Below, piece by piece: positions 3,688 to 63,725 of a stretch of 64,000 bases of DNA. The stretch's first letter is position 1, and each line of letters begins with the position of its first letter. The translations under genes were made by a program, and so were the position numbers. This DNA is from Terrabacter aerolatus (lineage in GTDB: Bacteria; Actinomycetota; Actinomycetes; Actinomycetales; Dermatophilaceae). The stretch lies in NCBI RefSeq assembly GCF_007991735.1, contig NZ_BJYX01000002.1, forward strand, positions 62,001 through 126,000, written 5' to 3'. The notes under the pieces were generated by a model. The model saw only the letters and a program-made list of their open reading frames with translations. It searched no databases and was not told the DNA's origin.

Positions 3688-4499
3688 TGCAGGGACCCTC
3701 ACGCGCAGCAGCGGCGGCGAGCCGCGAGGCGTTCACCGGCGTCCTTGCTGCCGGCGCCGACCGCTCGCGGTTGGCCGAGGAGCTCTTCGCCGTCGTCGGC
3801 GTCATCGACGGCAGCGCGACCCTGCGTCGCGCCGTCGCCGACCCCTCCCGCGAGGGGGCCGACAAGGCGCAGCTCGCCGAGCGTCTCTTCGCCGGCAAGG
3901 TCAGCGCCGAGGCGCTCGTCGTGCTCAAGGGCGCCTTCGGGCACCGCTGGAGCTCCGAGCGTGACCTGACCGACACGCTCGAGTCGTATGCCGTCGAGGC
4001 CGTCATCGCCCAGGCCGAGGCCGACGGCCGTGCCGACCGGGTCGAGGACGAGCTCTTCCGCTTCGAGCGGATCGTCGCGGCCGACGCGGCGCTGCGTTCG
4101 GCGCTGGCCGACACCCAGGCGCCTGCCGAGAAGCGCGCGGACCTCGTGTCCTCGCTCCTGCTCGGCAAGGTCGCCCCGGAGACGCTCGTGCTGGCCCGTC
4201 AGGCCGTGGTCGCCCCCCGCGGCCTGCGCTTCGACCGGGTCCTCGAGAAGTACCTCGAGACGGCCTCGAGCCGCCGCGAGCAGCAGACGGCCGTCGTCAC
4301 CTCGGCCGTCCCGCTCACCGACGACGACCGTGCCCGCCTCGCGGCGGGCCTGGCTGCCATCTACGGCGGCACGGTCCACGTCAACACCGTCGTGGACCCC
4401 CGGGTCATGGGCGGGGTCAAGGTCGAGATCGGTGACGAGCTCATCGACGGCACCGTCATCCGCAAGCTCGACGCGGCCCGCCGGGCCATGGGTGCCTGA
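3687..4499 (+). CDS. atpH: ATP synthase F1 subunit delta
   Basis: A 270-residue protein; the C-terminal OSCP/delta signature is seen in TSAVPLTDDDRARLA, then GTVHVNTVVDPRVMGGVKVEIGDELIDGTV. It is longer than the roughly 180-residue E. coli delta, as usual in actinobacteria. It ties the peripheral stalk to the top of F1. The ATG overlaps the atpF stop. One copy of the octamer GTATGCCG falls in codons for Tyr-Ala at 3986. Confidence 0.96.
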   Translation: MQGPSRAAAAASREAFTGVLAAGADRSRLAEELFAVVGVIDGSATLRRAVADPSREGADKAQLAERLFAGKVSAEALVVLKGAFGHRWSSERDLTDTLESYAVEAVIAQAEADGRADRVEDELFRFERIVAADAALRSALADTQAPAEKRADLVSSLLLGKVAPETLVLARQAVVAPRGLRFDRVLEKYLETASSRREQQTAVVTSAVPLTDDDRARLAAGLAAIYGGTVHVNTVVDPRVMGGVKVEIGDELIDGTVIRKLDAARRAMGA

Positions 4500-4568
4500 G
4501 GCACCCACCACCAGCTGTGATCAACCATTGGCCCGTCCTGCGGGTCGAGACCGAGGAGAAGATCTGAC

Positions 4569-6200
4569 ATGACGGAGCTTTCGATCCGTCCGGAGGAGAT
4601 CCGGGACGCACTGGACTCGTTCGTCCAGTCCTACGAGCCCGGCGCGGCCTCCCGCGAAGAGGTCGGCCGCGTCACCGACGCCGGTGACGGCATCGCTCAC
4701 GTCGAGGGTCTTCCCTCGGCCATGACCAACGAGCTGCTCCAGTTCGAGGACGGCACGCTCGGCCTCGCGCTGAACCTCGACGTCCACGAGATCGGTGTCG
4801 TCGTCCTCGGTGACTTCGCCGGCATCGAGGAGGGCCAGACCGTCAAGCGCACGGGCGAGGTCCTCTCCGTCCCGGTGGGCGACGACTTCCTCGGCCGCGT
4901 CGTGGACCCGCTCGGCAACCCGATCGACGGCCTCGGCGAGATCAAGACCGACGAGCGTCGCGCCCTCGAGCTGCAGGCGCCCAACGTCGTCCAGCGCAAG
5001 TCGGTGCACGAGCCGCTCCAGACCGGCATCAAGTCGATCGACGCCATGACGCCGATCGGCCGCGGCCAGCGCCAGCTCATCATCGGCGACCGCCAGACCG
5101 GCAAGACCACGGTCGCGATCGACACGATCATCAACCAGAAGCGCAACTGGGAGTCCGGCGACCCCGACGCCCAGGTTCGCTGCATCTACGTCGCCATCGG
5201 CCAGAAGGGCTCGACCATCGCGTCGGTCCGCGGCACGCTCGAAGAGGCCGGCGCCCTGGAGTACACGACGATCGTCGCGGCCCCCGCGTCCGACTCGGCC
5301 GGCTTCAAGTACCTCGCGCCCTACACCGGTTCGGCCATCGGCCAGCACTGGATGTACCAGGGCAAGCACGTCCTCATCGTCTTCGACGACCTGTCCAAGC
5401 AGGCCGAGGCCTACCGCGCCGTGTCGCTGCTGCTGCGCCGCCCGCCGGGCCGCGAGGCCTACCCGGGCGACGTCTTCTACCTGCACTCGCGGCTGCTCGA
5501 GCGTTGCGCGAAGCTCTCCGACGACCTCGGCCACGGCTCGATGACGGGTCTGCCGATCATCGAGACCAAGGCGGGCGACGTCTCGGCGTACATCCCGACC
5601 AACGTCATCTCGATCACGGACGGCCAGATCTACCTGCAGGCCGACCTGTTCAACGCCAACGTGCGTCCGGCCATCGACGTGGGTGTCTCGGTCTCCCGAG
5701 TCGGTGGTGCCGCGCAGATCAAGGCGATGAAGTCGGTCGCCGGTCGACTCAAGCTCGACCTCGCGCAGTTCCGCGCCATGGAGGCGTTCGCCATGTTCGC
5801 CTCCGACCTCGACCCGGCCTCGCGTGCCCAGCTCGCCCGTGGTGCGCGCCTCGTCGAGCTGCTCAAGCAGCCGCAGAGCTCGCCGTACCCCGTCGAGGAG
5901 CAGGTCGTCTCGATCTGGACCGGCACGACCGGCAAGCTCGACGACATCGCCGTCGAGGACGTGCGGACCTTCGAGTCCGAGCTGCTCGAGGCGCTGCGTC
6001 GCGACGGCAAGATCCTCCAGACGATCCGCGAGACCCTCAAGCTCGACGAGGACACCGAGACGGCCCTGTCCAAGGTCGTCGACGAGGTCAAGTTCACCTT
6101 CCGGGGCACCGGCAGGGACGGCCTCGAGGCCGGCAGCGAGGAGTTCGACGAGATCGCCGACGACCAGATCACCCAGGCGAAGATCGTCAAGCAGAAGTGA
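4569..6200 (+). CDS. atpA: ATP synthase F1 subunit alpha
   Basis: 543 residues. Beta-barrel N-domain, then the Walker A motif GDRQTGKTT near residue 172, the segment VSRVGGAAQ near 375, and a C-terminal helical domain. It forms the non-catalytic nucleotide sites of the alpha3beta3 hexamer. AGGAGAAG sits upstream of the ATG. It is followed within 5 bases by a perfect 19-bp inverted repeat before atpG, an uncommon arrangement within this operon. Confidence 0.98.
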
Positions 6201-6204
6201 CCAC

Positions 6205-6244
6205 CTTCCGTATGCCGCCCGGCCAGCCGGGCGGCATACGGAAG
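6205..6244. repeat. Perfect 19-bp inverted repeat inside the atp operon
   Basis: The left arm 6205-6223 and right arm 6226-6244 pair without mismatch around a 2-base centre (a 4-base loop in RNA). Each arm contains one copy of the iterated octamer (GTATGCCG at 6210, CGGCATAC at 6232). No T run follows, and the operon continues into atpG, so it looks like an RNA-stability or attenuating hairpin rather than a full terminator. Function is inferred. Confidence 0.85.
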
Positions 6245-7243: not shown

Positions 7244-8731
<1,488 letters not shown>

Positions 8732-10437: not shown

Positions 10438-10463
10438 CGGCATACGTGGTCGGTGGTGGCGCC

Positions 10464-11741: not shown

Positions 11742-11787
11742 CGGGAGGCCCCCACGGGCTTCGCCGGGCGTATGCCGGGTGGCCGGG

Positions 11788-14413: not shown

Positions 14414-16495
14414 ATGTCTTCGACGGAGAGCACACCGCCCGCGGCTGCCCGGGTGACGCCCGACCGGCCCTGGGTCATGCGCACGTATGCCGGCCACTCG
14501 AGTGCCGCCGCGAGCAACGCGCTCTACCGTCGGAACCTCGACAAGGGGCAGACCGGCCTGTCGGTCGCCTTCGACCTGCCGACCCAGACCGGCTATGACC
14601 CCGACCACGTGCTCTCGCGCGGCGAGGTCGGCAAGGTCGGCGTCCCGATCAGCCACATCGGTGACATGGCCGCACTCTTCGCCGACATCCCGCTGCGCGA
14701 GATGAACACATCGATGACGATCAACGCGACGGCCATGTGGCTGCTCGCCCTCTACCAGGTCGCCGCCGAGCAGCAGGCCGAGGCGGCCGGAGACGACCCG
14801 GCGGACTGGGTGCACGCCCTCGCGGGGACGACGCAGAACGACATCATCAAGGAGTACCTCTCGCGGGGGACCTACGTCTTCCCGCCCGGTCCGTCGCTGC
14901 GGCTCATCACCGACCTCGTCGCCTACACGGTGCGCGAGATCCCGAAGTGGAACCCCGTCAACATCTGCAGCTACCACCTGCAGGAGGCCGGCGCCACGCC
15001 CGTGCAGGAGATCGCCTACGCCATGTCGACGGCCGTCGCGGTGCTCGACGCGGTGCGCGACTCGGGGCAGGTTCCGGCCGAGGAGTTCTCGAGCGTGGTG
15101 GCCCGGATCTCCTTCTTCGTCAACGCCGGCGTCCGCTTCGTCGAGGAGATGTGCAAGATGCGCGCCTTCGTGCAGCTGTGGGACGAGCTGACCCGCGAGC
15201 GCTACGGCGTCACGGACGCCAAGGCCCGACGCTTCCGCTACGGCGTCCAGGTCAACAGCCTCGGCCTGACCGAGGCCCAGCCCGAGAACAACGTCCAGCG
15301 CATCGTCCTCGAGATGCTCGGCGTGACGCTGTCCAAGGACGCGAGGGCGCGCGCGGTCCAGCTGCCGGCCTGGAACGAGGCCCTCGGCCTCCCGCGACCG
15401 TGGGACCAGCAGTGGAGCCTGCGCATGCAGCAGGTGCTCGCCTACGAGTCCGACCTGCTCGAGTACGACGACCTGTTCACCGGGTCGGTCGTCGTCGAGG
15501 CCAAGGTCGCCGAGCTCGTCGCGGGCGCCCGGGCCGAGATGGCGCGCATCGAGGAGCTGGGTGGGGCGGTCGCGGCGGTCGAGTCGGGCTACATGAAGTC
15601 CGCACTCGTCGCCTCGCACGCGGAACGTCGCCGCCGCATCGAGGCCGGCGAGGCCGTCGTCGTGGGTCTCAACCGGTTCGAGACGACCGAGCCCAACCCG
15701 CTGACCGCCGACCTCGACACGGCGATCCAGGCCGTCGACGCCGACGTCGAGCGGCACGCCTCCGAGTCCGTACGCGGATGGCGCCAGGCGCGTGACGCCG
15801 ACCCCGAGCGCCGCGAGCGGGCGCGAGCCGCGACGGAGCGCCTCCGTTCCGACGCCGCGTCGGGCGCCAACCTCATGGCCGCGTCGCTCGAGTGCGCCCG
15901 CGCGGGCGTGACGACGGGGGAGTGGACCGCCGCCCTGCGTGAGCAGTTCGGCGAGTACCGCGCTCCCACAGGCGTGTCCGGCTCGGTGGGGGTGGCCTCG
16001 AGCGAGCCGGGTGACGCCCTGTCGCGGGTGCGCGAGCTGGTCGCCGGTACCGGTGAGGAGCTGGGTGAGAAGCTGCGCATCCTCGTCGGCAAGCCCGGCC
16101 TCGACGGGCACAGCAACGGCGCCGAGCAGGTGGCCGTGCGGGCTCGCGACGCCGGCTTCGAGGTCGTCTACCAGGGCATCCGCCTGACGCCGGAGCAGAT
16201 CGTCGCCGCAGCCGTGGCCGAGGACGTCCACCTCGTCGGGATCTCGATCCTCAGCGGCTCGCACATGGAGCTCGTGCCCGAGGTGCTCCGCGGGCTGCGC
16301 GAGGCAGGCGCGGGTGACGTGCCGGTCATCGTCGGTGGCATCATCCCCGAGTCCGACGCCGCGGCCCTGCGGGCGGCCGGGGTCGCCATGGTCTTCACGC
16401 CGAAGGACTTCGGGCTCAACGACATCATGGGCGAGATGGTCGGTGTGATCCGGGCCGCACGCGGGCTCGCGCCGCTCGAGTCCGCCCCGGCCTGA
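14414..16495 (+). CDS. meaA: MeaA-type adenosylcobalamin-dependent acyl-CoA mutase (ethylmalonyl-CoA mutase-like)
   Basis: 693 residues. The N-terminal 540 residues form the acyl-CoA mutase barrel (RTYAGHSSAAASNALYR, SVAFDLPTQTGYD, AGTTQNDIIKEYLSRGTY, NICSYHLQEAGATP); the C-terminal 130 form the B12 domain with base-off motif DGHSNG and GGIIPESD. One chain carries both domains, unlike the usual two-subunit methylmalonyl-CoA mutase of actinobacteria. Family knowledge: MeaA proteins rearrange (2R)-ethylmalonyl-CoA to methylsuccinyl-CoA. Ccr, epimerase and MeaB in this window fit that pathway. Substrate choice over methylmalonyl- or isobutyryl-CoA is inference. Confidence 0.88.
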   Translation: MSSTESTPPAAARVTPDRPWVMRTYAGHSSAAASNALYRRNLDKGQTGLSVAFDLPTQTGYDPDHVLSRGEVGKVGVPISHIGDMAALFADIPLREMNTSMTINATAMWLLALYQVAAEQQAEAAGDDPADWVHALAGTTQNDIIKEYLSRGTYVFPPGPSLRLITDLVAYTVREIPKWNPVNICSYHLQEAGATPVQEIAYAMSTAVAVLDAVRDSGQVPAEEFSSVVARISFFVNAGVRFVEEMCKMRAFVQLWDELTRERYGVTDAKARRFRYGVQVNSLGLTEAQPENNVQRIVLEMLGVTLSKDARARAVQLPAWNEALGLPRPWDQQWSLRMQQVLAYESDLLEYDDLFTGSVVVEAKVAELVAGARAEMARIEELGGAVAAVESGYMKSALVASHAERRRRIEAGEAVVVGLNRFETTEPNPLTADLDTAIQAVDADVERHASESVRGWRQARDADPERRERARAATERLRSDAASGANLMAASLECARAGVTTGEWTAALREQFGEYRAPTGVSGSVGVASSEPGDALSRVRELVAGTGEELGEKLRILVGKPGLDGHSNGAEQVAVRARDAGFEVVYQGIRLTPEQIVAAAVAEDVHLVGISILSGSHMELVPEVLRGLREAGAGDVPVIVGGIIPESDAAALRAAGVAMVFTPKDFGLNDIMGEMVGVIRAARGLAPLESAPA

Positions 16496-16515: not shown

Positions 16516-16863
16516 ATGAGCGACCTGCAGTGTGCCGCGCGCATCATCGTCGTCAACCCGCCGGGACTCGCGGACGTCGCGTGGCTCGCGTCGGCCATCC
16601 ACCTCGAGAAGATCCAGGCGGTGTATGCCGCCGACGACGTCCCGGACACCGGGCCGGTCGAGTCCCTGGCCGACGACCTCGGGGTCCCCTCCCACCTCGG
16701 TCACGGTGACCTGCACGACGGGTCGTCCGGGCTGGAGGAGCTCGTCGACCGGCACCGGGGTGAGAGCGTCGTCGTCGTGCGTGGCGGCGACTCCGCCGAG
16801 CCGGTGCTGCTGCTCGTCGACGCCGACGGCACGACGCGTCGGTCGCTCGAGGGCCTGTCCTGA
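16516..16863 (+). CDS. Small protein, possible degenerate histidine-phosphatase fold
   Basis: 115 residues, no membrane segment. I do not recognise a named family. The pattern IIVVNPPGLADVAWLASAIHLEKIQAVYAADDVPDTGPVESLADDLG resembles the first half of phosphoglycerate-mutase-type phosphatases (IxAVYSS..RA..TA..LA..LG), and GESVVVVRGGDSAEPVLLL the later (V)VVSHG region, but both catalytic histidine motifs are missing. If so it is a non-catalytic relative. It lies between meaA and an AlkD-like gene, 23 bases before the latter. Confidence 0.6.
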   Translation: MSDLQCAARIIVVNPPGLADVAWLASAIHLEKIQAVYAADDVPDTGPVESLADDLGVPSHLGHGDLHDGSSGLEELVDRHRGESVVVVRGGDSAEPVLLLVDADGTTRRSLEGLS

Positions 16864-20134: not shown

Positions 20135-20443
20135 ATGCCCTCGCGTCGTCGTCCCAGCAAGCACGCGCGGGAGCACGTGCCCCTTGACGTGACGCGGATC
20201 CAGGGTGGCGCCACCCGTGAGGAGTCGTATGCCGGCACGCGCTGGACGGTGCGCTCCGTGAGCGGTGCGACCGCCACCCGTGACTACCTGTGCCCGGGCT
20301 GCCAGCAGGACATCCCGCCCGGGGTGCCCCACGTCGTCGTGTGGCCGGCCGAGGGCGTGGGTGGTCTCGGCGACCGGCGACACTGGCACACGGGGTGCTG
20401 GCAGAGGAGGGACGCCCGCCCGAGCGGCAACTCCTACCGCTGA
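20135..20443 (+). CDS. Small protein with putative zinc site
   Basis: 102 residues, no recognised name. A basic N-terminus (MPSRRRPSKHAREH) precedes a compact domain with LCPGCQQDIPPGVPHVVV and RRHWHTGCW, so C-x2-C and H-x2-C could bind one metal ion. Similar short proteins are common in actinobacteria. It lies directly after the dehydrogenase fusion; no functional tie is evident. Confidence 0.7.
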   Translation: MPSRRRPSKHAREHVPLDVTRIQGGATREESYAGTRWTVRSVSGATATRDYLCPGCQQDIPPGVPHVVVWPAEGVGGLGDRRHWHTGCWQRRDARPSGNSYR

Positions 20444-22710: not shown

Positions 22711-24117
22711 CTAGTGCCGGCGCTGCCTCGGGACGAGGACCTCCTCGTAGAGCAGCAGCGCCCCCGCCGCGAAGGGGATCGCCAGGAGCGCGCCGAGGAT
22801 GCCGAGCAGCGCGCCACCCGCGAGCGCCGCGACGACCGTCACGGCGCCGGGGACGGCCACCGTCCGCTGCATGACGCGCGGCATGACGGCGTAGTTCTCG
22901 ATCTGCTGGTAGACGATGAAGTAGATGATGACGATGAGCGCCTTCCGGGGCTCGTCGAAGAAGGCGACGACGGCGACGACGGACGCGCCGAGGGTCGCAC
23001 CGACCATCGGCACGAGCCCGAGGAAGCCCACGAGCACCGCCAGCACCGCGGCGAACTGCAGCCCGAGGAGGCTCATCATGATCCAGGCGAAGAACGCGTT
23101 GATGGCGGCGACGGCGACCTGGCCGATGGCATACGAGCCCACGCGGCGCATGACCTCCTCGGCGAGGGAGACGGCTCGCGGCCGGCGGCTGGCCGGGACG
23201 AGGGCATAGGCCGCCTGCTTGACCGCCGGGAGCGACGCGAGGAAGTAGAGGGTGAGCACGAGCACCGTGAGGCCGCTGAAGACGCCCGTCGCGATGAGCC
23301 TGCCCGCGTCGAGGACGCCGCCGAAGACGCCCGCCCACAGGTTGCCGTCGGCGACGCGCTTGTTGACCTCCTCCTGGACGCGCTGGACGAGCTGGTAGCG
23401 ATGGTCGACGTCCTGCACCCACGGGTTGGCCAGGAGGTTGTCGAACATCCGTGGCACGTTCGTGGCGAGGTCGGTGCCCTGCTGTGCCACCGGGGGGATG
23501 ACGACCCAGCCGACGAGGGTGAAGACCGCGATGACGCCGAGGAAGACGATCGTCACGGCCCAGCCTCGTCGCACGGTGCGCCGGGTCAGCGCCTCGACGA
23601 GCGGGTTGAGGGCCAACGTGAGGAAGAACGAGATGACGAGCAGCGTGATGACGGTGCCGAGCCGCCCGACGGCCTGCACGACGGCGTATGCCGTGAGCAC
23701 GCCGAGCGCGCCCACGAAACCGATGTAGAACGGCGACTGCTTGTTGAAGGGCGTGCCGCTCTGCCCGAAGTCCTTCCGTCCCTCCTTGCCGGGCCTGCTG
23801 CCGGCCGAGGGCCGGGGGGCGCCGGACCGGGGTGGTGACGGTGGCTCCCGGTCGTCCCCCGCGCCTGAGTCGACGTCGGCGAGCTCGAGGGGCAGGGCGT
23901 CGGCGAGGGGACCCGGGCCGGGCGCGCCCGCCGGCTGCGGCGTCGCCGGCGAGTCGGGCGCGTCGGGTGCATCGGGTGGGCCGCCGGAGGGCCGCGAGGA
24001 CCTGCCCCAGGCCGCCTGCGAGGCCTCGACGTCGAAGCCGAGGTCGCGGGCCCGGAAGCCGTCCATCCGGGCTCGCTGGGCGCGTCGGTACCGCGTCCAG
24101 CGTCCCCAGATGCTCAC
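22711..24117 (-). CDS. AI-2E family transporter (PerM-like)
   Basis: 468 residues. The first 110 are disordered, rich in Pro, Gly and Asp; then eight hydrophobic segments of the AI-2E exporter family, including the amphipathic loop FDNLLANPWVQDVDHRYQLVQRVQEEVNKRV and the C-terminal block GLVPMVGATLGASVVAVVAFF. Family members export autoinducer-2, indole or ions; substrate unknown here. GTG at 24117 is selected because TAGGCT lies 7 bases upstream; a longer frame beginning at 24240 crosses this element. Confidence 0.88.
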   Translation of the reverse strand: MSIWGRWTRYRRAQRARMDGFRARDLGFDVEASQAAWGRSSRPSGGPPDAPDAPDSPATPQPAGAPGPGPLADALPLELADVDSGAGDDREPPSPPRSGAPRPSAGSRPGKEGRKDFGQSGTPFNKQSPFYIGFVGALGVLTAYAVVQAVGRLGTVITLLVISFFLTLALNPLVEALTRRTVRRGWAVTIVFLGVIAVFTLVGWVVIPPVAQQGTDLATNVPRMFDNLLANPWVQDVDHRYQLVQRVQEEVNKRVADGNLWAGVFGGVLDAGRLIATGVFSGLTVLVLTLYFLASLPAVKQAAYALVPASRRPRAVSLAEEVMRRVGSYAIGQVAVAAINAFFAWIMMSLLGLQFAAVLAVLVGFLGLVPMVGATLGASVVAVVAFFDEPRKALIVIIYFIVYQQIENYAVMPRVMQRTVAVPGAVTVVAALAGGALLGILGALLAIPFAAGALLLYEEVLVPRQRRH

Positions 24118-24130: not shown

Positions 24131-24242
24131 CGGCAGGCCTCGGGGCCACGCCTGACGGCATACGGGTACGACCACGGGGAACGACGACATGACGGCGCCG
24201 CCGACGGCACCGTCACCCACCCGACCACCACGAGGAGCACCC

Positions 24243-29617: not shown

Positions 29618-29642
29618 ACGGCATACGACCCGCGTATGCCGT
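29618..29642. repeat. Inverted pair of the octamer between mce and thiolase
   Basis: ACGGCATACG-acccg-CGTATGCCGT, a perfect 10-5-10 palindrome in the divergent promoter region, made of two opposed octamer copies. It could act as an operator or as a hairpin at the head of either transcript. Confidence 0.75.
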
Positions 29643-30956: not shown

Positions 30957-31922
30957 GTGGCACGGCGATCCGTCGACGTCCCCGCCCTGGTCGAGTCGGC
31001 CGGGGCGGGTTCGCCGCGCGCCGTCGCACGCCTCATCTCCCTCGTCGAGGACGGGCACGAGTCCCTCCGTCAGGTCATGGCGGCCCTCGCGCCCCATGCC
31101 GGCAACGCCTGGGTCATCGGGATCACCGGCTCGCCCGGGGTCGGCAAGTCGACGACGACCACCGCCCTCGTCGGCGCCTTCCGTGAGCGGGGCCTGCGGG
31201 TCGGCGTGCTCGCGGTCGACCCCAGCTCGCCCTTCTCCGGCGGCGCGCTGCTCGGGGACCGCATCCGCATGCAGGACCACGCGCTCGACCCGGAGGTCTA
31301 CATCCGGTCCATGGCCTCCCGCGGGCACCTCGGCGGACTGTCCTTCACGACGCCGCAGGCCATCCGCGTGCTCGACGCAGCAGGGTGCGACGTCGTGCTC
31401 GTCGAGACGGTCGGTGTGGGGCAGTCGGAGGTCGAGATCGCAGGCCTGGCCGACACCTCGGTCGTGCTCCTCGCGCCGGGGATGGGCGACGGCATCCAGG
31501 CCGCCAAGGCCGGCATCCTCGAGATCGGCGACGTCTTCGTCGTCAACAAGGCCGACCGTGACGGCGCCGACGCCACGGTCCGCGACCTGCGCCACATGAT
31601 CTCCCTCGGCGACCGCACCGAGCCCGGCCTCTGGAGACCGCCGGTCGTGAAGACCGTTGCGGCACAGAAGGTCGGCATCGACGAGGTCATGGAGGCGCTC
31701 GACAAGCACCGCGCCCACATCGAGGAGAACGGCGATCTCGTCCAGCGTCGCGAGCGTCGCGTCGTCGACGAGATCGAGACCATCGCCCTCGCGGCGCTGC
31801 GGGCCCGGCTCGGTCACCTCGGGGGGCATGACGGCGTCACCGCCCTGGCCCGCGACGTCATCGCCGGTCGCACCGACCCGTATGCCGCCGCCGACCGTCT
31901 CGTGGAGCAGCTCGGTACCTGA
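30957..31922 (+). CDS. meaB: MeaB/ArgK-type GTPase chaperone of B12 mutases
   Basis: 321 residues. Walker A GSPGVGKSTTT near 60, DPSSPFSGGALLGDRIRM near 90, ETVGVGQSEVEIAGLAD near 145 and NKADRDGAD (base specificity) near 195. MeaB loads and protects adenosylcobalamin in acyl-CoA mutases, using GTP. It probably serves the MeaA-type mutase at 14.4 kb, since no methylmalonyl-CoA mutase gene lies beside it. GTG at 30957, weak ribosome-binding site, co-transcribed with the thiolase. An octamer copy encodes Tyr-Ala near its end. Confidence 0.94.
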   Translation: MARRSVDVPALVESAGAGSPRAVARLISLVEDGHESLRQVMAALAPHAGNAWVIGITGSPGVGKSTTTTALVGAFRERGLRVGVLAVDPSSPFSGGALLGDRIRMQDHALDPEVYIRSMASRGHLGGLSFTTPQAIRVLDAAGCDVVLVETVGVGQSEVEIAGLADTSVVLLAPGMGDGIQAAKAGILEIGDVFVVNKADRDGADATVRDLRHMISLGDRTEPGLWRPPVVKTVAAQKVGIDEVMEALDKHRAHIEENGDLVQRRERRVVDEIETIALAALRARLGHLGGHDGVTALARDVIAGRTDPYAAADRLVEQLGT

Positions 31923-33106: not shown

Positions 33107-33175
33107 CTCCGTGACCCGCGGAGCCGGGTCGGCGCGGTCGGCGAGGGCGGTCTCGCGACGGGTGCCGGGGCGGCA

Positions 33176-43885: not shown

Positions 43886-46090
43886 TCAGTGGCTCCTAAC
43901 GTGGATGATGTGGACGGGCTCGGAGTCGGGCCCCAGTCGGACGAAGTTGTCCTGGCGCCACTCCCACGTCTGGTTCGTGATGTGGTCGTGCGCCTCGAAG
44001 GTCGACCACGTGGCCATACCCAGAGCCTCCATGTCGAGGTGCACCCACGTCTCACGCGTCGCGTGCGGGTCGAGGTTGGCGATGACGAGGACGGTGTCGC
44101 GCTCACCCGTGGCCGGGTCGACGACGCGGGACTTGCTGAAGACGAGGACGTTCTCGTCGTCGGCCGCGTGGAAGCGCAGGTTGCGCAGCCAGCGCAGCGC
44201 CGGGTGCCAGCCGCGGATGTCGTTGAGCCGCTTGAGGTACCAGGCGAGCGAGCGGCTCTCGAGCGGGCCGCCCGGCTCGTAGAGGTACCACTGGCGGTCC
44301 TTGTACTCGTACTTCTCGTTGTCGAGCTGCTCCTCGGCGCCGGGGCGGGCCAGGTGCTCCATGAGCTCGTAGCCGGCGTAGATGCCGTAGGTCGGTGACA
44401 TCGTCGCCGCGACGGCGGCGCGCAGCTTCCACGCCGTGGGCCCGCCGTACTGCATGTAGGGGGTGAGGATGTCGTGGGTGGTGGGCCAGAACGACGGGCG
44501 CATGTAGGCGGCGCCGGTGTCGTCCCCGGCGAGCTCGCGGCCGTACTCCTCGAGCTCCCACTTCGCGTTGCGCCACGCGTAGTACGTGTAGCTCTGCTGG
44601 AAGCCGGCCTTGGCGAGGTGGTGCATCATCGCCGGCTTCGTGAACGCCTCGGACAGCCAGATCGTGTCGGGGTGGGTCAGGGCGACGTCGGCGATCAGCC
44701 ACTGCCAGAAGGCGACCGGCTTCGTGTGGGGGTTGTCGACTCGGAAGATGCGCACGCCGTGGTCGAGCCACACCTGGATGACGCGGCGCACCTCGGCGTA
44801 GGCCTCGGCCGGGTCGTTGTCGAAGTTGAGCGGGAAGATGTCCTGGTACTTCTTGGGCGGGTTCTCGGCGTAGGCGATGGTTCCGTCGGCGCGCGTCGTG
44901 AACAGCGACGGGTGCGTCTGGACCCACGGGTGGTCCGGGGAGGCCTGGAGGGCGATGTCGAGGGCGACCTCGAGCCCGGCGCTCTTCGCCTCTGCGACGA
45001 AGTGGTCGAAGTCCTCGAAGGTGCCGAGGTCGGGGTGGATCGCGTCGTGGCCGCCGTCGGGCGAGCCGATGGCGTAGGGGGATCCGGGGTCGCCCGGCTC
45101 GGCGCTCAGCGAGTTGTTGCGGCCCTTGCGCGCCGTCGTGCCGATGGGGTGGATCGGCGTGAGGTAGACGACGTCGAAGCCCATGGCGGCGATGGCGGGC
45201 AGGCGCTCGGCCGCGGAGCGGAAGGTGCCCGAGACCCACTCGCCGGTCGTCTCGTCACGGTGCGCGCCCTCGGACCGGGGGAAGATCTCGTACCACGCGC
45301 CGAAGAGCGCGCGCTCGCGCTCGACGAGCAGGGAGTATGCCGGTGAGGCCGACACGAACTCGCGCAGCGGCACGAGCGCGGCGAGGCCCGTGATCTCGGG
45401 CGAGGTCGCGGCACCGAAGCGGTGGGCGGCGGGGGAGCGGGTGTCCCCGAGCGCCAGCACGCCCTTGTCGATCTCGGACGCGTCGACCCCGAGGCCGCGC
45501 ACCGACTCGGCGAAGCGCTCGAGCACGCGCACGCCCTCGGCGCACATGAGGTCCTCGTCGACCCCCGCGGCGATCTTGATGCCGGCGTCGTGCACCCACG
45601 TCGCGTAGGGGTCGGACCAGCCCTCGACGCGGTAGGTCCACCAGCCCTCGCGGTCGGCGACGACCGAGGTGGACCACTCGGACAGGCCCGGGTTGTCGCT
45701 GTGCATCGCGAAGTAGTGGTCGGTGCCGTCCGGGTCGGTCAGGACCGCGGTCGCGTTGACGGCGTCGTGGCCCTCGCGGAAGACCTTGGCCCGGACGGTG
45801 AACTCCTCACCGACGACCGACTTCGCGGGACGGGTCCCACCGTCGACGAGGGGACGGACGTCGCTCACGGGGATGCGGCCCATCGGGAGCGCGGCACCCG
45901 GCATACCTTCGACGGTCGGCGGCGTGCTGACGGGGTGGTCGGGCGCGAGGTGGACGGCTCCCGCCGCGGTGTCGTCGACGAAGGCGGTGTCTGCGGTCGG
46001 GGTGGCGTCAGCGCGTCGTGGTGCTTGGGGTGCGGCGCTGCGCACGCGGGTCGGCTTGCTGGAACGATGCTTCTTCGCTGAGCCAGTCAC
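43886..46090 (-). CDS. glgE: Alpha-1,4-glucan:maltose-1-phosphate maltosyltransferase
   Basis: 734 residues, GH13_3. Catalytic motifs FRVDNPHTKPVAFW (nucleophile Asp), WLSEAFTKPAMM (Glu) and WPTTHDILTPYMQ. It extends alpha-glucan chains with maltose from maltose 1-phosphate. The domain normally starts near GRIPVSDVRPLVDGG, but here about 75 residues precede it, basic then acidic, without homology known to me. GTG at 46090 is chosen because TACGGT lies 7 bases upstream; the open frame continues to 46189. First gene of the operon glgE-treS-mak-glgB-pgm-unknown, divergent from glgP. Confidence 0.95.
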   Translation of the reverse strand: MTGSAKKHRSSKPTRVRSAAPQAPRRADATPTADTAFVDDTAAGAVHLAPDHPVSTPPTVEGMPGAALPMGRIPVSDVRPLVDGGTRPAKSVVGEEFTVRAKVFREGHDAVNATAVLTDPDGTDHYFAMHSDNPGLSEWSTSVVADREGWWTYRVEGWSDPYATWVHDAGIKIAAGVDEDLMCAEGVRVLERFAESVRGLGVDASEIDKGVLALGDTRSPAAHRFGAATSPEITGLAALVPLREFVSASPAYSLLVERERALFGAWYEIFPRSEGAHRDETTGEWVSGTFRSAAERLPAIAAMGFDVVYLTPIHPIGTTARKGRNNSLSAEPGDPGSPYAIGSPDGGHDAIHPDLGTFEDFDHFVAEAKSAGLEVALDIALQASPDHPWVQTHPSLFTTRADGTIAYAENPPKKYQDIFPLNFDNDPAEAYAEVRRVIQVWLDHGVRIFRVDNPHTKPVAFWQWLIADVALTHPDTIWLSEAFTKPAMMHHLAKAGFQQSYTYYAWRNAKWELEEYGRELAGDDTGAAYMRPSFWPTTHDILTPYMQYGGPTAWKLRAAVAATMSPTYGIYAGYELMEHLARPGAEEQLDNEKYEYKDRQWYLYEPGGPLESRSLAWYLKRLNDIRGWHPALRWLRNLRFHAADDENVLVFSKSRVVDPATGERDTVLVIANLDPHATRETWVHLDMEALGMATWSTFEAHDHITNQTWEWRQDNFVRLGPDSEPVHIIHVRSH

Positions 46091-48875: not shown

Positions 48876-51026
48876 TCAGGGGCGGTGGGTCGCCACCGAG
48901 CGCCAGAGCTGCATCGACGACGGGCCCATCGCGACGAAGTGCCCTGCCGGGACGGAGCCGGACGGAGGCGCTGGCCGCTCGTGCGTGCTGTCCCAGAGCA
49001 GCTCGTAGGCCGTGGCGCCGGGTGCCGAGGGCAGCGTGACGTCGGCGCCGCCGGCCGAGCCGTTGACGACGATGAGCACCGACCGCTCCGAGATCGCCGC
49101 GCCGTTGTAGAGCCCCTGCAGCACGGCGACCGCGGGTCCGTCCCAGCGCTCGCCCATCGGCTCACCGTCGGCTCCGAACCAGGCCAGGTCGGTCGAGCCG
49201 TCGGCGTGGATGCTCCTGCCGGAGAAGAAGGCCCGCTGCCGCAGCACCGGGTGCTCGTGCCGCAGACGCACGAGGTGCCGAGTCGTCTCGAGCAGGTCCT
49301 CCTGCCAGGGCTCGAGCTCCCACGAGGCCCAGCTGATCTCGTTGTCCTGCGAGTACGGGTTGTTGTTGCCCCGCTGGCTGCGCCCGAGCTCGTCGCCGGC
49401 GTTGAGCATCGGGACACCGGTCGAGAGCAGCAACGTGCCGAGCAGGTTGCGCATCGACCGTCGTCGGGCCGCGGCGACGTCAGGGTCGGTGGTGCGTCCC
49501 TCGACCCCGTGGTTCCACGACCGGTTGTCGTTGGAGCCGTCGGTCCCGCTGTGACCGTTGGCCCCGTTGTGCTTGGTGTCGTATGCCGTGAGGTCCGCGA
49601 GGGTGAAGCCGTCGTGCGCGGTGACGAAGTTGACCGACGCGATGGTCCCGCGGTCGTGCCGGTCGAAGAGGTCCTGCGAGCCCGCGAGCCGGGTGGCGAG
49701 CTCACGCACGCCGTGGCCGATCCCACCCGCCGCCGAGGCGGCGAGGTCGCGCAGCCAGAAGGTGCGTGTCGCGTCGCGGTAGCGGTCGTTCCACTCCGAG
49801 AAGGGGGGTGGGAACTGGCCCGTGCGCCAGCCGTGCAGGCCGAGGTCCCACGGCTCGGCGACGAGCTTGGCGCGGGAGAGCGCCGGGTCGGTACGCAGCG
49901 CGACGAGGAACGGGTGGTCGCGGTCGTAGCCGTCGTCCTTGCCCCGGCCGAGGGCGACGGCCAGGTCGAAGCGGAAGCCGTCGACGTGGCACTCCTGCAC
50001 CCAGTAGCGCAGCGAGTCGAGGACCATCCGGGCGACGACGGGATGCGTCAGGTCCAGGGTGTTGCCGCACCCGGTGACGTCGATGTCCCGCCCGCGGCCG
50101 TCGACGCGGTAGTAGGCGCGCTGGTCGAGGCCGCGCCACGAGAGGGTCATGCCGTCGCGGGAGTTCTCCGCGGTGTGGTTGTAGACGACGTCGAGCAGCA
50201 CCTCGATGCCGGCGGCGTGGAGGTCCTTGACCATCGTCTTGAACTCGTCGAGGGCACCCTGCGGGTCGCTCGTCGACGCGTACGCCGCGTGGGGCGCGAA
50301 GAACCCGAGGGTGTTGTAGCCCCAGTGGTTGGTCAGCCCACGCAGCACGAGGTCGGGCTCGTGGGTGAAGGTGTGGACCGGCAGCAGCTCGACCGCCGTG
50401 ACACCGAGCCCCAGCAGGTGCTCGACGAACGCCGGGTGGGCCAGGCCGGCATACGTCCCCCGGAGGTGCTCGGGAACGCCGGGGTGCAGCTTCGTCGCGT
50501 TCTTGACGTGGACCTCGTAGATGAGCGACTCGGTGAGCGAGCGTCGGGGGAAGTCGTCCGAATCCCAGTCGAACTCGTCCTCGACGATGACGCAGCGCGG
50601 CATGTGGGGAGCCGAGTCGCGGTCGTCGCGGACCCAGAGGTCTCCGCGCAGGTCGGGCCCGACGCGGTGCCCGTAGACGGCGGGATCGAGGCGCACCCCG
50701 CCCTCGATGGCCCGGGCGTACGGGTCGAGGAGCAGCTTGGCGGGGTTGTGCAGCAGGGACCGGTCGGGGTCCCAGTCACCGTCGACGCGGAAGGCGTAGC
50801 GCTGGCCCGCCGCGACGCCGGGAACGGTGTCGAACCACGTGCCGTGGGCCCGGTGCCGGAGCCTGACCCGGCGCTCGGTCGTCGTCCCGTCGGCGGCCTC
50901 GTCGAAGAGGCAGACGTCCACCGAGCGCGCGTGTCCGGCGTAGACGCAGAACTGGGCCCCGTCGGCTGTCAGCCGGACCCCGAGCTCCGGAGGCAGGTCG
51001 GGCGTCGCGGGCGGAGGCGGGCACAT
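48876..51026 (-). CDS. glgX: Glycogen debranching enzyme (GlgX/TreX type)
   Basis: 716 residues, GH13_11. N-terminal CBM48-like domain (LTADGAQFCVYAGHARSVDVCLFDE), barrel with DGFRFDLAVALGR (nucleophile Asp), KLVAEPWDLG (Glu) and FVTAHDGFTLADL (Asp). It hydrolyses alpha-1,6 branches left after GlgP action. ATG at 51026 is supported by TACGCT 7 bases upstream. Two octamer copies occur within it, one forcing GCA and one forcing TAT. Confidence 0.95.
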   Translation of the reverse strand: MCPPPPATPDLPPELGVRLTADGAQFCVYAGHARSVDVCLFDEAADGTTTERRVRLRHRAHGTWFDTVPGVAAGQRYAFRVDGDWDPDRSLLHNPAKLLLDPYARAIEGGVRLDPAVYGHRVGPDLRGDLWVRDDRDSAPHMPRCVIVEDEFDWDSDDFPRRSLTESLIYEVHVKNATKLHPGVPEHLRGTYAGLAHPAFVEHLLGLGVTAVELLPVHTFTHEPDLVLRGLTNHWGYNTLGFFAPHAAYASTSDPQGALDEFKTMVKDLHAAGIEVLLDVVYNHTAENSRDGMTLSWRGLDQRAYYRVDGRGRDIDVTGCGNTLDLTHPVVARMVLDSLRYWVQECHVDGFRFDLAVALGRGKDDGYDRDHPFLVALRTDPALSRAKLVAEPWDLGLHGWRTGQFPPPFSEWNDRYRDATRTFWLRDLAASAAGGIGHGVRELATRLAGSQDLFDRHDRGTIASVNFVTAHDGFTLADLTAYDTKHNGANGHSGTDGSNDNRSWNHGVEGRTTDPDVAAARRRSMRNLLGTLLLSTGVPMLNAGDELGRSQRGNNNPYSQDNEISWASWELEPWQEDLLETTRHLVRLRHEHPVLRQRAFFSGRSIHADGSTDLAWFGADGEPMGERWDGPAVAVLQGLYNGAAISERSVLIVVNGSAGGADVTLPSAPGATAYELLWDSTHERPAPPSGSVPAGHFVAMGPSSMQLWRSVATHRP

Positions 51027-53701: not shown

Positions 53702-53862
53702 GCGCCCATCCTCGGCACGGGTCGCCAACGCCGACAAGCGGTTTTGCCCCGGCCGAGCGCGTCTCCCGGGCTCGGCCGTCGGGCTCGTCCGGCGGGCTCG
53801 AGGTCGGCCACGGCATACGCTCGCGGTGGTCTGGTGGTGAGCGTCACGCCACCGGCGTGCGG

Positions 53863-55819: not shown

Positions 55820-56293
55820 TCAGGCGGCTTCCTGGTCGAGGTCGAGCCGGGCGGTCAGGCGCGCCCAGCTCTCGAGCCGCTCGCGGTTGAGGGCGTATGC
55901 CGTCCGGCCCGTCCCGAGGGTCCACCACGCCCCGCGCAGGGCCTCCGAGGGCAGCCGCACCGGACGGTCCCCACCGCGGCGCCACTCGAGCCGGCCGCTC
56001 GAGGACACCCGTCGCACGTCGCGCCGGTCCACCGTCGTCGTGGCGAGCGTGTTGTGCACCCGCAGGCTCCGCGCGCCGAGGTCGATCCGGGCCGACCACG
56101 CACGCCAGCCCAGCGTGAGCGCGACGGCCAGGCACACGGCATACGTCAGCACCGTCGGCAACGAGGGCACGAGGTGCTCGAGCAGCCGGGCGACGAAGAA
56201 GCCGACGACCGGGCACGTGAGTCCGGCCACGGCGCGGTGGGCAGCGGGCGCGGTGAGCCGGCTCCCGCCGGTGCTCTCGTGCCTGCCACGCAT
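55820..56293 (-). CDS. Small membrane protein with PH-like domain
   Basis: 157 residues. Two N-terminal hydrophobic segments (about 23-40 and 48-68), then [32 protein letters not shown] and [24 protein letters not shown], as in actinobacterial PH (bPH2-like) proteins. Function unknown. ATG at 56293 is chosen from TATGAT-N7-ATG; ATG at 56311 lies upstream of that hexamer. Two octamer copies lie inside. Confidence 0.78.
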
Positions 56294-57588: not shown

Positions 57589-58748
57589 GGGTCGTCGCCG
57601 CGATGAGCGGGGGCGTCGACTCGGCCGTCGCCGCCGCCCGCATGCTCGACGCCGGACACGAGGTCGTCGGGGTGCACCTGGCCCTGAGCCAGAGCGCCGC
57701 CACCCTGCGCGAGTCGGCCCGCGGCTGCTGCACCATCGAGGACGCCGGCGACGCGCGGCGGGTGGCCGACGTGCTCGGGATCCCGTTCTACGTCTGGGAC
57801 ATGGCCGCGCGTTTCAAGCGCGACGTCGTCGACGACTTCCGGGCCGAGTACGCCGCGGGGCGCACGCCCAACCCCTGCCTGCGCTGCAACGAGAAGATCA
57901 AGTTCGCGGCCCTGCTCGACAAGGCGCTCGCGCTCGGCTTCGACGCGGTCGCCACGGGGCACTACGCCCAGGTGGTCGAGACCGACGACGGCCACGGGGG
58001 AGTGCGGCGCGAGCTGCACCGGGCCGTCGACTCCGCCAAGGACCAGAGCTACGTGCTCGGTGTCCTCGACGAGGAGCAGCTCGCCCGGTCCTTCTTCCCG
58101 CTCGGCGACACGACGAAGCCCCGGATCCGTGAGGAGGCGGCGGATCGCGGCTTCTTCATCGCGAAGAAGCCCGACAGCCACGACGTGTGCTTCATCCCGG
58201 ACGGTGACACGCGCGGGTGGCTGACGCGCGAACTCGGGGCCGCGCCGGGCGACATCGTCGACACCGAGGGAGACGTCGTGGGCCGCCACGAGGGAGCCTT
58301 CGCCTACACCGTCGGCCAGAGACGCGGACTCGGCCTCTCGCGCCCGGCCGCGGACGGCGAGCCGCGCTACGTGGTGCAGGTGCGTCCCGAGACCAACCAG
58401 GTCGTCGTCGGGGCGGCCGACCTGCTCGGCGTCAACGCCATCACCGGCGACCACGCCCGCTGGTGCGGGCCGGCGCCCGAGGGTGTCGTGCGCGTGGGCG
58501 CCCAGGTGCGGGCGCACGGCGAGGAGTATGCCGCAACCGCCTGGGCCGAGGGTGGCCGCGTCGAGGTGCGGCTGCAGGGCCGGGTCCGCGGGGTGGCTCC
58601 CGGCCAGTCCGTCGTGCTCTACGACGGCACGCGCGTCGTCGGGTCGGCCAGCATCGCGACCTCCCGGCTCGAGCGGCCGAGCGAGGCCGGCGCCGTCCAC
58701 GGGGACCCGGCGGCCGACGAGGTCAGGTCAGTGACCGCGTCCACGTGA
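57585..58748 (+). CDS. mnmA: tRNA-specific 2-thiouridylase
   Basis: 387 residues. PP-loop [16 protein letters not shown], catalytic cysteines in [12 protein letters not shown] near 97 and [11 protein letters not shown] near 200, and the C-terminal beta-barrel with [11 protein letters not shown]. It thiolates wobble uridine 34 in tRNAs for Glu, Gln and Lys. GTG overlaps the desulfurase stop. Its last 26 bases overlap a converging GNAT gene. Confidence 0.96.
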
Positions 58749-59709: not shown

Positions 59710-59715
59710 GGCGCG

Positions 59716-60696
59716 GTGACTCTCGCTACCGGCATCGGCTCCTGGCCCGGCACCTCCGTGCGCGACGCGCTGGGACAGGTGCGTGAGCTGCTCGACGGCC
59801 AGCTCCCGTACCTGCCCGAGCTGCCGGCTCGCGGTCCCGGCGCCGACATGGTCGGACGCACCGCGGGCCTGCTCGTCGAGCTCCCGGTGGACCTCCAGCC
59901 CATCGGCTGGCGGCTCGTCGACCGACCCGGTCGCGACGCCTCGCGCACCGCGGCCCTGCTGGGCGAGGACCTCGACGAGCTCGCAGAGGCGTTCGACGGG
60001 CACACGGGGCCGCTCAAGGTGCAGGTCGTCGGACCGTGGACGCTGGCCGCCAACGTCTGGCTGTCGCGCGGTGAGCGCGTCATCGTCGACGACGGAGCGA
60101 GCCGCGACCTCGTCGAGTCCCTCGCCGAGGGGGTGCGCCTGCACGTCGCCGCCGTGCGCAGCCTCGTGCCGGGCGCGCAGGTCGTCCTGCAGGTGGACGA
60201 GCCCAGCCTGCCGACCGTCCTGGCCGGGCGCCTGCCCACGTCGTCGGGCTTCGGGCGCCTGCCGAGCCTCGACCCCCAGGTCGCCGCCGCCGGCCTCGCG
60301 ACCGTGCTCGCCGCCCACGACGGCGACACCGTCGTCCACTGCTGCGCGGACCGGCCACCCCTCGCCCTGCTGCGCGCCACCGGTGCCCGGGCGCTGTCGC
60401 TCGACACCTCGCTGCTGCGCCCGCGGGAGTGGGAGGGTGTCGCCGTCGCGGTGGAGGACGGCATACGCCTCCATGCGGGAGCCGTTCCCACCGACGGTGG
60501 TCGCACGCGACCCCAGGACCTGTCCGCCGACCTCGTCGGGGCGTGGACGCGCACGGGTCTGCCGCTCGCGTCGCTCGTCGACGTCGTCGTCACGCCGGCC
60601 TGCGGTCTGTCGGGCGCCTCGCCGGAGGTGGCTCGCTCCGTGCAGCGGGCGGCGGTCGAGACCGCCCGTGAGCTCGAGGAGCGCAGCGCCGACTAG
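59716..60696 (+). CDS. MetE-like (cobalamin-independent methionine synthase family) protein
   Basis: 326 residues, matching only the C-terminal catalytic barrel of MetE. TGIGSWPGTS start, QVVLQVDEPSLPTV (substrate Asp-Glu-Pro), zinc ligands in VVHCCAD (His, Cys) and VVTPACGLSG (Cys). The N-terminal folate-binding barrel of MetE is absent, so the methyl donor may differ, for example a corrinoid protein. An octamer copy falls in DGIRL and uses the rare Ile codon ATA. Confidence 0.85.
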   Translation: MTLATGIGSWPGTSVRDALGQVRELLDGQLPYLPELPARGPGADMVGRTAGLLVELPVDLQPIGWRLVDRPGRDASRTAALLGEDLDELAEAFDGHTGPLKVQVVGPWTLAANVWLSRGERVIVDDGASRDLVESLAEGVRLHVAAVRSLVPGAQVVLQVDEPSLPTVLAGRLPTSSGFGRLPSLDPQVAAAGLATVLAAHDGDTVVHCCADRPPLALLRATGARALSLDTSLLRPREWEGVAVAVEDGIRLHAGAVPTDGGRTRPQDLSADLVGAWTRTGLPLASLVDVVVTPACGLSGASPEVARSVQRAAVETARELEERSAD

Positions 60697-62032: not shown

Positions 62033-62213
62033 GCGTGAATACCCTTCGCAGACGTGACGCCGGGCGCCCCGGGTCGGGACGGGGTGCGGCACGTCGATAG
62101 TGACCCTGCTCCAGTGTCACCGATCGGGCCCAATACTCCAAAACCAACGGCGAGTCCAAACCCTTGCGTGTCGCGGCCGTGGACGTGGTCCCGGGGAGGC
62201 GTGGTCGGGGCCG

Positions 62214-63725
62214 TCAGGGGGCCTCCACCGGCCGGACCTCGCGGCGCAGGATCTTGCCCGTGGGGCCCTTGGGCAGCTCTCCGAGGCTCCAGATCCGACG
62301 CGGGTACTTGTAGGCCGCCAGGCGGTCCTTGACGTAGGCCTGCACGTCCTCGAGGGTCGCGGTCGAGCCGGGGCGGAGCACGACGGCGGCCCCGACCTCC
62401 TCGCCCATGAGCTCGTCGGGCACGCCGACGACCGCGGCCTCCAGCACGTCGGGGTGCGTGTAGAGCACCTCCTCGACCTCCCGCGGGTAGACGTTCATGC
62501 CGCCCCGGATGATCATGTCCTTCTTGCGGTCGACGATCGTGTAGTAGCCCTCGTCGTCGACGGTCGCGAGGTCACCGGAGCGGAACCACCCGTCGGGGAT
62601 GGCCTCCTTCGTGGCCTCAGGGCGGTTCCAGTAGCCCTTCATGATGTTCTCGCCGCGGATCGCGATCTCGCCGATCCCACCGGCCGGGGTCTCGTTGCCC
62701 TCGATGTCGACGAGCTTCATCTCGCAGCCGGGGATGGCCCGGCCGATGGTGCCGGGCTTCGTCGGCTTGTCGGGCATGTTGAAGGACGCCACGGGGGAGG
62801 TCTCGGACAGCCCGTAGCCCTCGAGGATCTGGCAGCCGAACTTCTCCTCGAAGGCCTTCATGACCTGGGCCGGCATGGCGGAGCCGCCGGACGCGCAGGT
62901 GCGCAGGCTGCTCGTGTCGGCCTGGTCGGCGTTCGCGTGGTTGAGGATGGCGGCATACATCGTCGGGACGCCCTGGAAGATCGTCACGTGGTCGCGGCCG
63001 AGCACCTCGATGGCCTTGGCCGGGTCGAAGCGGGGGATCAGCGTCAGCGTGCAGCCCTGCTGGACGGAGGTGTTGAGCCCGCAGGTGAGGCCGAAGACGT
63101 GGAACAGCGGCAGGCAGCCCATGATGACGTCGTCCTGGGTGATCCGCATGATGTCGCTCGAGGTGACCTCGGCGTTGCGGTGCAGGTTGAAGTGCGTCAG
63201 CTCGGCGCCCTTGGGCTTGCCCGTGGTGCCGCTCGTGTAGAGGATGACGGCTGTGTCGTCGTCGGCCCGCTCGACGGGCTCGAGCACGGGAGCTCCCGCG
63301 GACTCGGACGCGTCGAACTGCCCGTCGGCGGGTCCCATGGGACCGCACACGAGCAGGCGGGTGCCGGTCTCGGCGGCGGCCTTGGCGGCCTCGTCGGCGA
63401 AGTCGGGCCACACGAAGCTGAAGCGGGCGCCGCTGTCCTCGTAGAAGTACTGGATCTCGCCGGACTTGAGCAGCGGGTTCATCGGCACGACGACGCCGCC
63501 GGCCAGCAGGGCGCCGTAGAACGCGACGGGGTATGCCGGCACGTTGGGCAGGATGAGCGAGACCCGGTCGCCCGGCTCGAGGCCCGCTGCCCGCAGCTGG
63601 CCGGCCACCGCTGCCGCCGCCCGGTGCAGGGCCGACCACGTCAGCTCCACCTGGTCGAGCTTGATGCCGACCTTGTCGGGGACGCGGGCCGCGGTGGCGG
63701 CGAGGTTGGCGGCGAGGTTGGTCAT
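62214..63725 (-). CDS. Long-chain fatty-acid/acyl-CoA ligase (AMP-forming)
   Basis: 503 residues. ATP-binding [16 protein letters not shown] near 161, [10 protein letters not shown] near 295, the hinge [41 protein letters not shown] near 385-425 and the catalytic lysine in PTGKILRRE near 493. It activates a fatty or related acid to acyl-CoA; chain length is not evident. GAAGGAG lies before the ATG. Two octamer copies are inside. The gap to the transpeptidase start is 181 bases without clear structure. Confidence 0.93.

Follow-up and report, generated by a model that had tools for sequence, protein, structure and literature searches.

The window analysed here is a 64-kb stretch of the 4.42-Mb draft genome of Terrabacter aerolatus (G000:C2:62001-126000), and the element in question is an octamer, GTATGCCG, that recurs throughout its genes and the gaps between them. 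A first-pass annotation had counted 30 copies in the window, and all of its coordinates and strands were exact, with 18 copies on the forward (+) strand and 12 on the reverse (-) strand. As it had also stated, the copies lie in gaps and in more than one reading frame of genes: 21 are genic and nine are intergenic. These assignments come from our own codon-likelihood gene caller, which sets crude starts and uses no reference annotation. Thirteen of the genic copies read xxG TAT GCC Gxx, six read xCG GCA TAC, and two read xGT ATG CCG. The rare codons said to be forced by the word were found for tyrosine (TAT) and alanine (GCA), whereas isoleucine ATA is forced at none of the window sites. Both of the inverted pairs described in the annotation were confirmed. 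The first, 6210/6232, is located 10 nt past the stop codon of the gene ending at 6200 and folds at -42.4 kcal/mol (z = -7.4), and the second, 29619/29634, lies within an intergenic gap. The copies of GTATGCCG are distributed as follows.

3986..3993, + strand, genic, Tyr-Ala frame
6210..6217, + strand, 5' hairpin arm, 10 nt past the stop of a 543-aa gene
6232..6239, - strand, 3' arm of the hairpin with 6210..6217
8118..8125, + strand, genic, phase 1 (GT ATG CCG)
10438..10445, - strand, intergenic
11770..11777, + strand, intergenic, with convergent genes on both sides
14485..14492, + strand, genic, Tyr-Ala frame
16623..16630, + strand, genic, Tyr-Ala frame
20227..20234, + strand, genic, Tyr-Ala frame
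23686..23693, + strand, genic, antisense, Ala GCA forced
24156..24163, - strand, intergenic
28639..28646, + strand, genic, Tyr-Ala frame
29619..29626, - strand, intergenic, inverted pair with 29634
29634..29641, + strand, intergenic, inverted pair with 29619
31880..31887, + strand, genic, Tyr-Ala frame
33171..33178, - strand, intergenic
33791..33798, + strand, genic, Tyr-Ala frame
37097..37104, + strand, genic, antisense, Ala GCA forced
38604..38611, - strand, genic, Tyr-Ala frame
45335..45342, + strand, genic, antisense, Ala GCA forced
45899..45906, - strand, genic, phase 1
49581..49588, + strand, genic, antisense, Ala GCA forced
50447..50454, - strand, genic, Tyr-Ala frame
53811..53818, - strand, intergenic
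55895..55902, + strand, genic, antisense, Ala GCA forced
56137..56144, - strand, genic, Tyr-Ala frame
58526..58533, + strand, genic, Tyr-Ala frame
60459..60466, - strand, genic, Tyr-Ala frame
62951..62958, - strand, genic, Tyr-Ala frame
63531..63538, + strand, genic, antisense, Ala GCA forced

The base composition of the window predicts 2.2 copies, in agreement with the earlier estimate of about two. Dinucleotide-preserving shuffles of the window gave a mean of 0.90 copies and a maximum of 3, and a first-order Markov model gave an expectation of 0.83 against the 30 observed. Under a maximal-order model, GTATGCCG falls outside the 30 most exceptional words of the window; this model is uninformative here because nearly all GTATGCC and TATGCCG 7-mers (31 each, against 30 octamers) belong to the word itself. 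The whole draft genome holds 2,163 copies (1,072 forward and 1,091 reverse), approximately one per 2 kb, compared with 195 copies of the reversed word as a control. In 464 kb sampled from the same genome, 250 copies were found where a second-order model expects 7.3, and GTATGCCG obtained the top score among all 8-mers with at least 10 copies. The flanks are mildly biased, with C directly 5' in 152 and T directly 3' in 126 of the 250 copies.

The results show that GTATGCCG is maintained at the DNA level. The 250 sampled copies comprise 176 coding, 69 intergenic and five straddling ones, which corresponds to 1.50 per kb in intergenic DNA and 0.42 per kb in coding DNA, a 3.6-fold difference (an earlier and cruder gene caller, since superseded, gave 184 coding, 59 intergenic and seven partial copies, at 0.45 per kb coding versus 1.02 intergenic). 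A single frame, Tyr-Ala, accounts for 110 of the 176 coding copies. In the same 464 kb, tyrosine in the context NNG-Tyr-GCC-GNN is written TAT at 110 of 126 positions and TAC at 16, compared with TAT at 13 of 104 positions where GCC is present but one flank is missing, and at 56 of 2,194 positions elsewhere. Additionally, alanine in the context NCG-Ala-TAC is encoded by GCA at 41 of 89 positions, against 794 of 18,602 elsewhere. The sites are also conserved between relatives. At the comEC locus, all six aligned copies were kept between the source genome and Terrabacter sp. Root85 (86.7% identity where aligned), compared with 37.7% for 8-mers in general and 18 of 63 for those bearing TAT or ATA. 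The same six sites were all kept in Terrabacter sp. Ter38, against backgrounds of 35.3% and 23 of 60, and between Root85 and Ter38, 11 of 12 sites were kept versus 65.5% of all 8-mers and 50 of 93 TAT- or ATA-bearing ones. Three other locus pairs were left out of the count: in one, both loci came from one genome; in another, a locus was paired with a longer copy of itself; and the third had just one aligned site (kept). By ComEC, the nearest named relative of the source genome is Terrabacter, which agrees with the placement in Intrasporangiaceae suggested by the annotation. The view of the annotation that selection is more likely on the DNA than on the protein is thus backed by the choice of codons, the enrichment in intergenic DNA and the conservation of sites.

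Within the 464 kb, neighbouring copies less than 60 bp apart form 15 pairs, of which 11 are +/-, two are -/+, and two lie on the same strand; in 2,000 trials of random placement, +/- pairs averaged 1.74 and never exceeded 7. Nine of the 11 +/- pairs lie outside called genes, and seven of these nine are located 10 to 33 nt past a stop codon. In contig 1, the gaps between convergent, tandem and divergent genes carry 3.76, 1.44 and 0.80 copies per kb, respectively; the corresponding values in contig 2, from few sites, are 1.79, 1.62 and 1.46. Orientation is balanced in contig 1, with 96 forward and 106 reverse copies over 360 contiguous kb, a stretch for which the replichore and the replication origin and terminus were not located, and contig 2 has 30 forward and 18 reverse copies over 104 kb. 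An uncultured Tetrasphaera locus contained 18 copies in 22 kb, and the Tetrasphaera phage TJE1 contained two in 49 kb (0.63 expected; no dialect has been assigned to the host of this phage).

We then counted the word, with tallies by hand, in a family set of 186 genomes and an order set of 396 genomes, 34 of which belong to the family. In the family, 107 of the 186 genomes carry at least about 130 copies per Mb, and the other 79 carry at most about 102. Of the 362 order genomes that belong to other families, none attains 130 copies per Mb. Three genomes stand at background level within motif-rich surroundings: G008 has 37 copies versus 1,251 to 1,660 in the rest of its genus, G084 has 19 versus 3,681 and 1,062 in its sisters, and G114 has 50 versus at least 394 in the others of its genus. 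Four genomes of similar or higher guanine-cytosine (GC) content (G161, G093, G014 and G083) have zero or one copy in 40-60 kb.

Two one-base variants of GTATGCCG, changed at two different positions, emerged from k-mer counts in 16 motif-poor family genomes (20-60 kb of each). The first, GGATGCCG (the G dialect), occurs 67 times in G178 and 70 times in G034, against 5.2 and 6.0 expected, and shows the full anatomy in both genomes. Its intergenic density is 2.01 per kb in G178 and 1.79 per kb in G034, with five +/- pairs in each, and aspartate in its context is encoded by GAT at 59 of 71 positions in G034 and 32 of 52 in G178, versus 148 of 2,116 and 74 of 2,820 elsewhere. This variant exceeds 680 per Mb in seven of the 186 genomes, the next highest value being 382. 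Two of the GGATGCCG-rich genomes, G036 and G037, also hold 1,217 and 1,189 copies of GTATGCCG, so that two words occur together. In genus g47, which is represented on the tree described below by G161, sister to G034/G036, the genomes G154 and G159 contain 1,210 and 1,336 copies of GGATGCCG, between background and a full dialect, possibly a dialect in decay.

The second variant, GTACGCCG (the C dialect), is the weaker of the two. It was found 60 times in G089 (3.6 expected) and 46 times in G002 (3.4 expected), with intergenic densities of 1.12 and 0.40 per kb. The two genomes pooled have 24 intergenic copies against a mean of 2.7 for words of the same composition, a value reached by two of 1,120 words including GTACGCCG itself. 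Ten of the 186 genomes exceed 300 per Mb, and the intergenic test covers two, G002 and G089, of the nine besides G084. The GTACGCCG copies of G084 were rejected as codon bias, as 40 of 41 coding copies lie in two frames and the intergenic density is 0.06 per kb; this genome was counted as being without a word. Two genomes of genus g44, G144 and G147, combine moderate numbers of GTATGCCG (625 and 836) with GTACGCCG (865 and 1,011), perhaps a dialect shift in progress.

A fourth word, CGAAGGGG, is unrelated to GTATGCCG. Its intergenic density is 2.29 per kb in G093 and 0.65 per kb in G052, compared with 0.00-0.12 in four other genomes, and it forms six close opposite-strand pairs in G093 and two in G052. 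It is abundant in 19 of the 186 genomes, namely all 16 of genus g27 and all three of g36, with at most about 96 per Mb in the others. Genus g27 is probably Janibacter, on a weak 31-mer match (274 versus 266 for the runner-up), and a J. indicus locus (L162) contains six copies of CGAAGGGG in 12 kb and none of GTATGCCG. With counts taken at face value in a hand tally, 140 of the 186 family genomes are rich in one of the four words and the other 46 in none. We placed the words of 28 genomes on a tree of TadA-C from a pilus cluster (Tad cluster B, below), in which the group without a GTATGCCG-type word comprises seven rows, one of them (G052) with CGAAGGGG. Well-supported branches force at least two changes for the G label, two for the C label and seven for this group; therefore, the words have been switched and lost more than once.

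Genes for the machinery of natural transformation are present in the family. All 68 genomes examined have ComEC, whether or not they are rich in the motif, and a seemingly broken comEC in G114 was rejected since the match runs out close to where its 8,504-base contig ends. A strict pattern places a comEA gene next to comEC in 15 of 20 neighbourhoods and ortholog clustering does so in 17; one or the other finds it in 19. Tad ATPases number two to nine per genome in 53 of 53 genomes. Two ATPase classes were taken from the scores and 20 neighbourhoods were fetched for each, so that the presence of the ATPase in these neighbourhoods holds by construction, because it defined the selection. Cluster A consists of a CpaE-like protein, TadA, B, C and a canonical Flp, each in 17-19 of 20 neighbourhoods; cluster B has TadA, B and C in 20 of 20, and a short Flp-like protein with TadE, F and G in 17-18 of 20. 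Directly past cluster B, the source genome encodes a small secreted protein (L108 14960-15418), which may, by resemblance, be a lamin-tail domain (LTD) protein. Type IVa pili were rejected as the machinery, since PilM (PilM_2) occurs in just three of 68 genomes.

No motif-specific gene was found in the 20 comE neighbourhoods or in the 20 of each Tad cluster, and a plasmid search with one window gene gave nothing of use. Six genomes without a GTATGCCG-type word (G008, G010, G052, G114, G161 and G183, of which G052 has CGAAGGGG) keep the cluster-B pilins, with no tadG detected in G010. In G084, which lacks a word in a motif-rich genus, flp, tadE, tadF and tadG are absent beside cluster B (L124, 7556 downwards) and within 20 kb on either side, as would be expected if competence had been lost first and the word had then decayed. 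For Micrococcus luteus, PMC4322843 reports that transformation no longer occurs once comEC is deleted and that, as deletions show, neither tad cluster is dispensable. From gene order and processing sites, we infer that clusters B and A would correspond to M. luteus tad-1 and tad-2.

Short words of this kind are known from transformation in Gram-negative bacteria as the DNA uptake sequence (DUS) and the uptake signal sequence (USS). The receptor of the Neisseria DUS is ComP, and the AT-DUS contains the letters ATGCCG, as GTATGCCG does; with no CTG core following, the overlap is probably a coincidence. The USS is unrelated in sequence to GTATGCCG. For these sequences, Bakkali (PMC1939737) gives 65% and 35% of copies in open reading frames, about 10% in inverted repeats, a non-coding excess and an unbiased orientation; here, 176 of 250 copies of GTATGCCG lie in open reading frames and 26 of 250 in inverted pairs. 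The USS of Pasteurellaceae (Haemophilus) is likewise described there as non-palindromic, genome-wide, without strand bias and partly in inverted repeats, although it works with a Gram-negative type IV pilus machinery. Frye et al. (PMC3630211) report for Neisseriaceae that DUS copies number in the thousands, that some of the dialects are a single base apart, that there are relatives lacking the DUS, and that one genome has two dialects in near-equal number. The words described here resemble the DUS in copy number, one-base dialects, two-dialect genomes, word-free relatives, non-coding excess and inverted repeats. They differ in occurring in another phylum, in being an exact 8-mer whose near misses are not in excess, and in the pili, which are of the Tad type rather than type IVa (PilM 3/68), with no ComP-like receptor found among the cluster-B pilins. 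M. luteus shares comEA, comEC and the tad clusters, whereas PMC4322843 describes no uptake sequence for it, the term 'uptake sequence' being absent from its main text.

We consider it probable that GTATGCCG is a DNA uptake sequence, that is, a self-recognition tag of natural transformation similar to DUS and USS. In its favour are the observed density, upkeep at the DNA level, hairpins, balanced orientation in one 360-kb stretch, dialects, unrelated substitute word and machinery genes, together with the low count in phage TJE1. The best reading is a dialect-bearing uptake sequence in Gram-positive bacteria that would act via Tad pili and ComEA/ComEC; we infer the uptake bias, the receptor and the drive. 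Word-bearing double-stranded DNA would be preferred by a receptor on the cell surface, probably a part of the Tad/Flp pilus or a protein that partners ComEA. The pilus would hand this DNA to ComEA, ComEC would let one strand into the cell, and recombination would then swap out the resident allele. Word-bearing fragments would be taken up more often; therefore, mutations that create the word would spread in the population, while mutations that disrupt it would be repaired. The word would thus accumulate to about one copy per 2 kb, starting at positions where the protein can accommodate it, and inverted pairs may be reused as terminator-like hairpins. A shift in receptor specificity would be followed by a genome-wide shift of the word, giving rise to dialects.

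Several observations weigh against an uptake sequence. The 24 single-mismatch forms of GTATGCCG sum by hand to 308 in the 464 kb against 338 expected, and a mismatch-tolerant drive should leave an excess of near misses as its footprint. One 60-kb stretch of contig 2 holds 19 forward and seven reverse copies, the + strand having 78% of the coding length. Motif-free gaps were rejected as foreign islands, as the longest in the 464 kb (G000:C1:128156-138647) resembles a flagellar cluster by eye (flhA, flhB, fliR, fliQ and fliP types); the second longest (G000:C1:92013-101305) has a transposase-like gene and a toxin-antitoxin-like pair, also by eye. No dialect-specific residue was seen by eye in the cluster-B pilins of 26 genomes (25 for tadG), and no receptor was found there. 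The presence of the machinery does not predict the motif, as shown by G161 and G183, which lack all four words in quantity but retain comEA and comEC along with both Tad clusters. Cluster B of G178 contains an insertion and only a remnant of tadG (L120 1602-7667), yet the word is kept, so the loss of the pilins would have to be recent. On the pilus-protein tree, the dialect labels barely cluster, with 13 changes against a shuffled mean of 14.4 and a count as low in 46 of 200 shuffles. Finally, full-text searches of open-licence papers returned, among the matches listed, no account of natural transformation in members of this family and none of an actinobacterial uptake sequence, which is not proof of absence. 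The literal GTATGCCG string returned, judged by title, only unrelated work among the matches listed.

Some of the same evidence bears on a Chi-like word or one like the FtsK orienting polar sequences (KOPS), read by an intracellular recombination or DNA-translocation enzyme. Chi and KOPS are short exact words of similar density, and an octamer is the typical length of Chi; the exact match without surplus near misses, the few copies in phage and the 60-kb stretch skewed 19 to 7 are what such a word could show. However, Chi and KOPS are strand-biased, whereas GTATGCCG is balanced at 96/106 in 360 contiguous kb, in a stretch whose replichore is not established. The inverted pairs past stop codons and the excess in convergent gaps (3.76 versus 0.80 per kb in divergent gaps, contig 1) would also be left unexplained, and two genera carry an unrelated word. 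We therefore regard this explanation as unlikely.

The first-pass annotation had drawn parallels to both uptake signals and the cyanobacterial highly iterated palindrome 1 (HIP1); the former fits the anatomy, and the latter does not. HIP1 is a highly iterated octamer in genes and gaps, and a HIP1-like word that owes its upkeep to a DNA methylase, to mismatch repair or to very-short-patch repair would agree with the very high density and the maintenance at the DNA level. HIP1 is a palindrome, though, and GTATGCCG is not its own reverse complement, forms hairpins near gene ends, has single-base dialects at two positions, and is replaced by an unrelated word in other genera. A C-to-T bias on GTACGCCG alone is not expected to yield 1.50 intergenic copies per kb. 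This origin is accordingly quite improbable.

Codon-context bias, which the annotation had named as a possible refutation, or high GC alone could account for over half of the coding copies lying in one frame (110/176), and it does explain GTACGCCG in G084. The intergenic density of 1.50 per kb, the forced rare codons TAT and GCA, and the near absence of GTATGCCG from the four genomes of similar or higher GC speak otherwise; the explanation has very little chance of being right and is regarded as refuted for GTATGCCG, GGATGCCG and CGAAGGGG, while part of GTACGCCG could still be due to it. An RNA element, such as the stem of a transcription terminator, would suit the 11 +/- hairpin pairs, seven of them intergenic at 10-33 nt past a stop codon, but with only 22 of 250 copies in +/- pairs and 176 of 250 inside genes, it is already insufficient as a general cause and hardly credible.

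The uptake-sequence reading may extend beyond the family. In several further families of the class (loci L169, L176, L211, L222 and L186), GTACGCCG is many-fold commoner than the same word reversed, with up to 3,588 copies in G607 against 134 for the control. Intergenic copies were seven versus 1.0 in Kribbella, 11 versus 3.1 in Nocardioides/Marmoricola, and three versus 1.9 in Streptomyces, and further stretches (L248-L250) had one, one and zero; this intergenic enrichment is suggestive only. A tentative extension, which we hold somewhat doubtful, is a class-wide actinobacterial code in which GTACGCCG, enriched also in Kribbella, Nocardioides and other families, would be the old form, GTATGCCG and GGATGCCG Intrasporangiaceae-type dialects, and CGAAGGGG a replacement in two genera, all read by a Tad/Flp receptor unrelated to ComP. 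If there were such a code with such a receptor, uptake sequences would therefore have arisen independently in Gram-positive bacteria.

If GTATGCCG is an uptake sequence, it would provide an independent replicate of uptake sequences beyond Neisseriaceae and Pasteurellaceae, the families described in the cited literature, complete with single-base dialects, two-dialect genomes, repeated losses and an unrelated replacement word. Self-recognition in transformation would then evolve repeatedly, also with another type of pilus, and the questions of why uptake words accumulate and how receptor specificity changes would become testable. This reading also predicts that many genera on which our limited searches returned no account of competence are naturally competent, and the word would offer a practical tag for transforming them.

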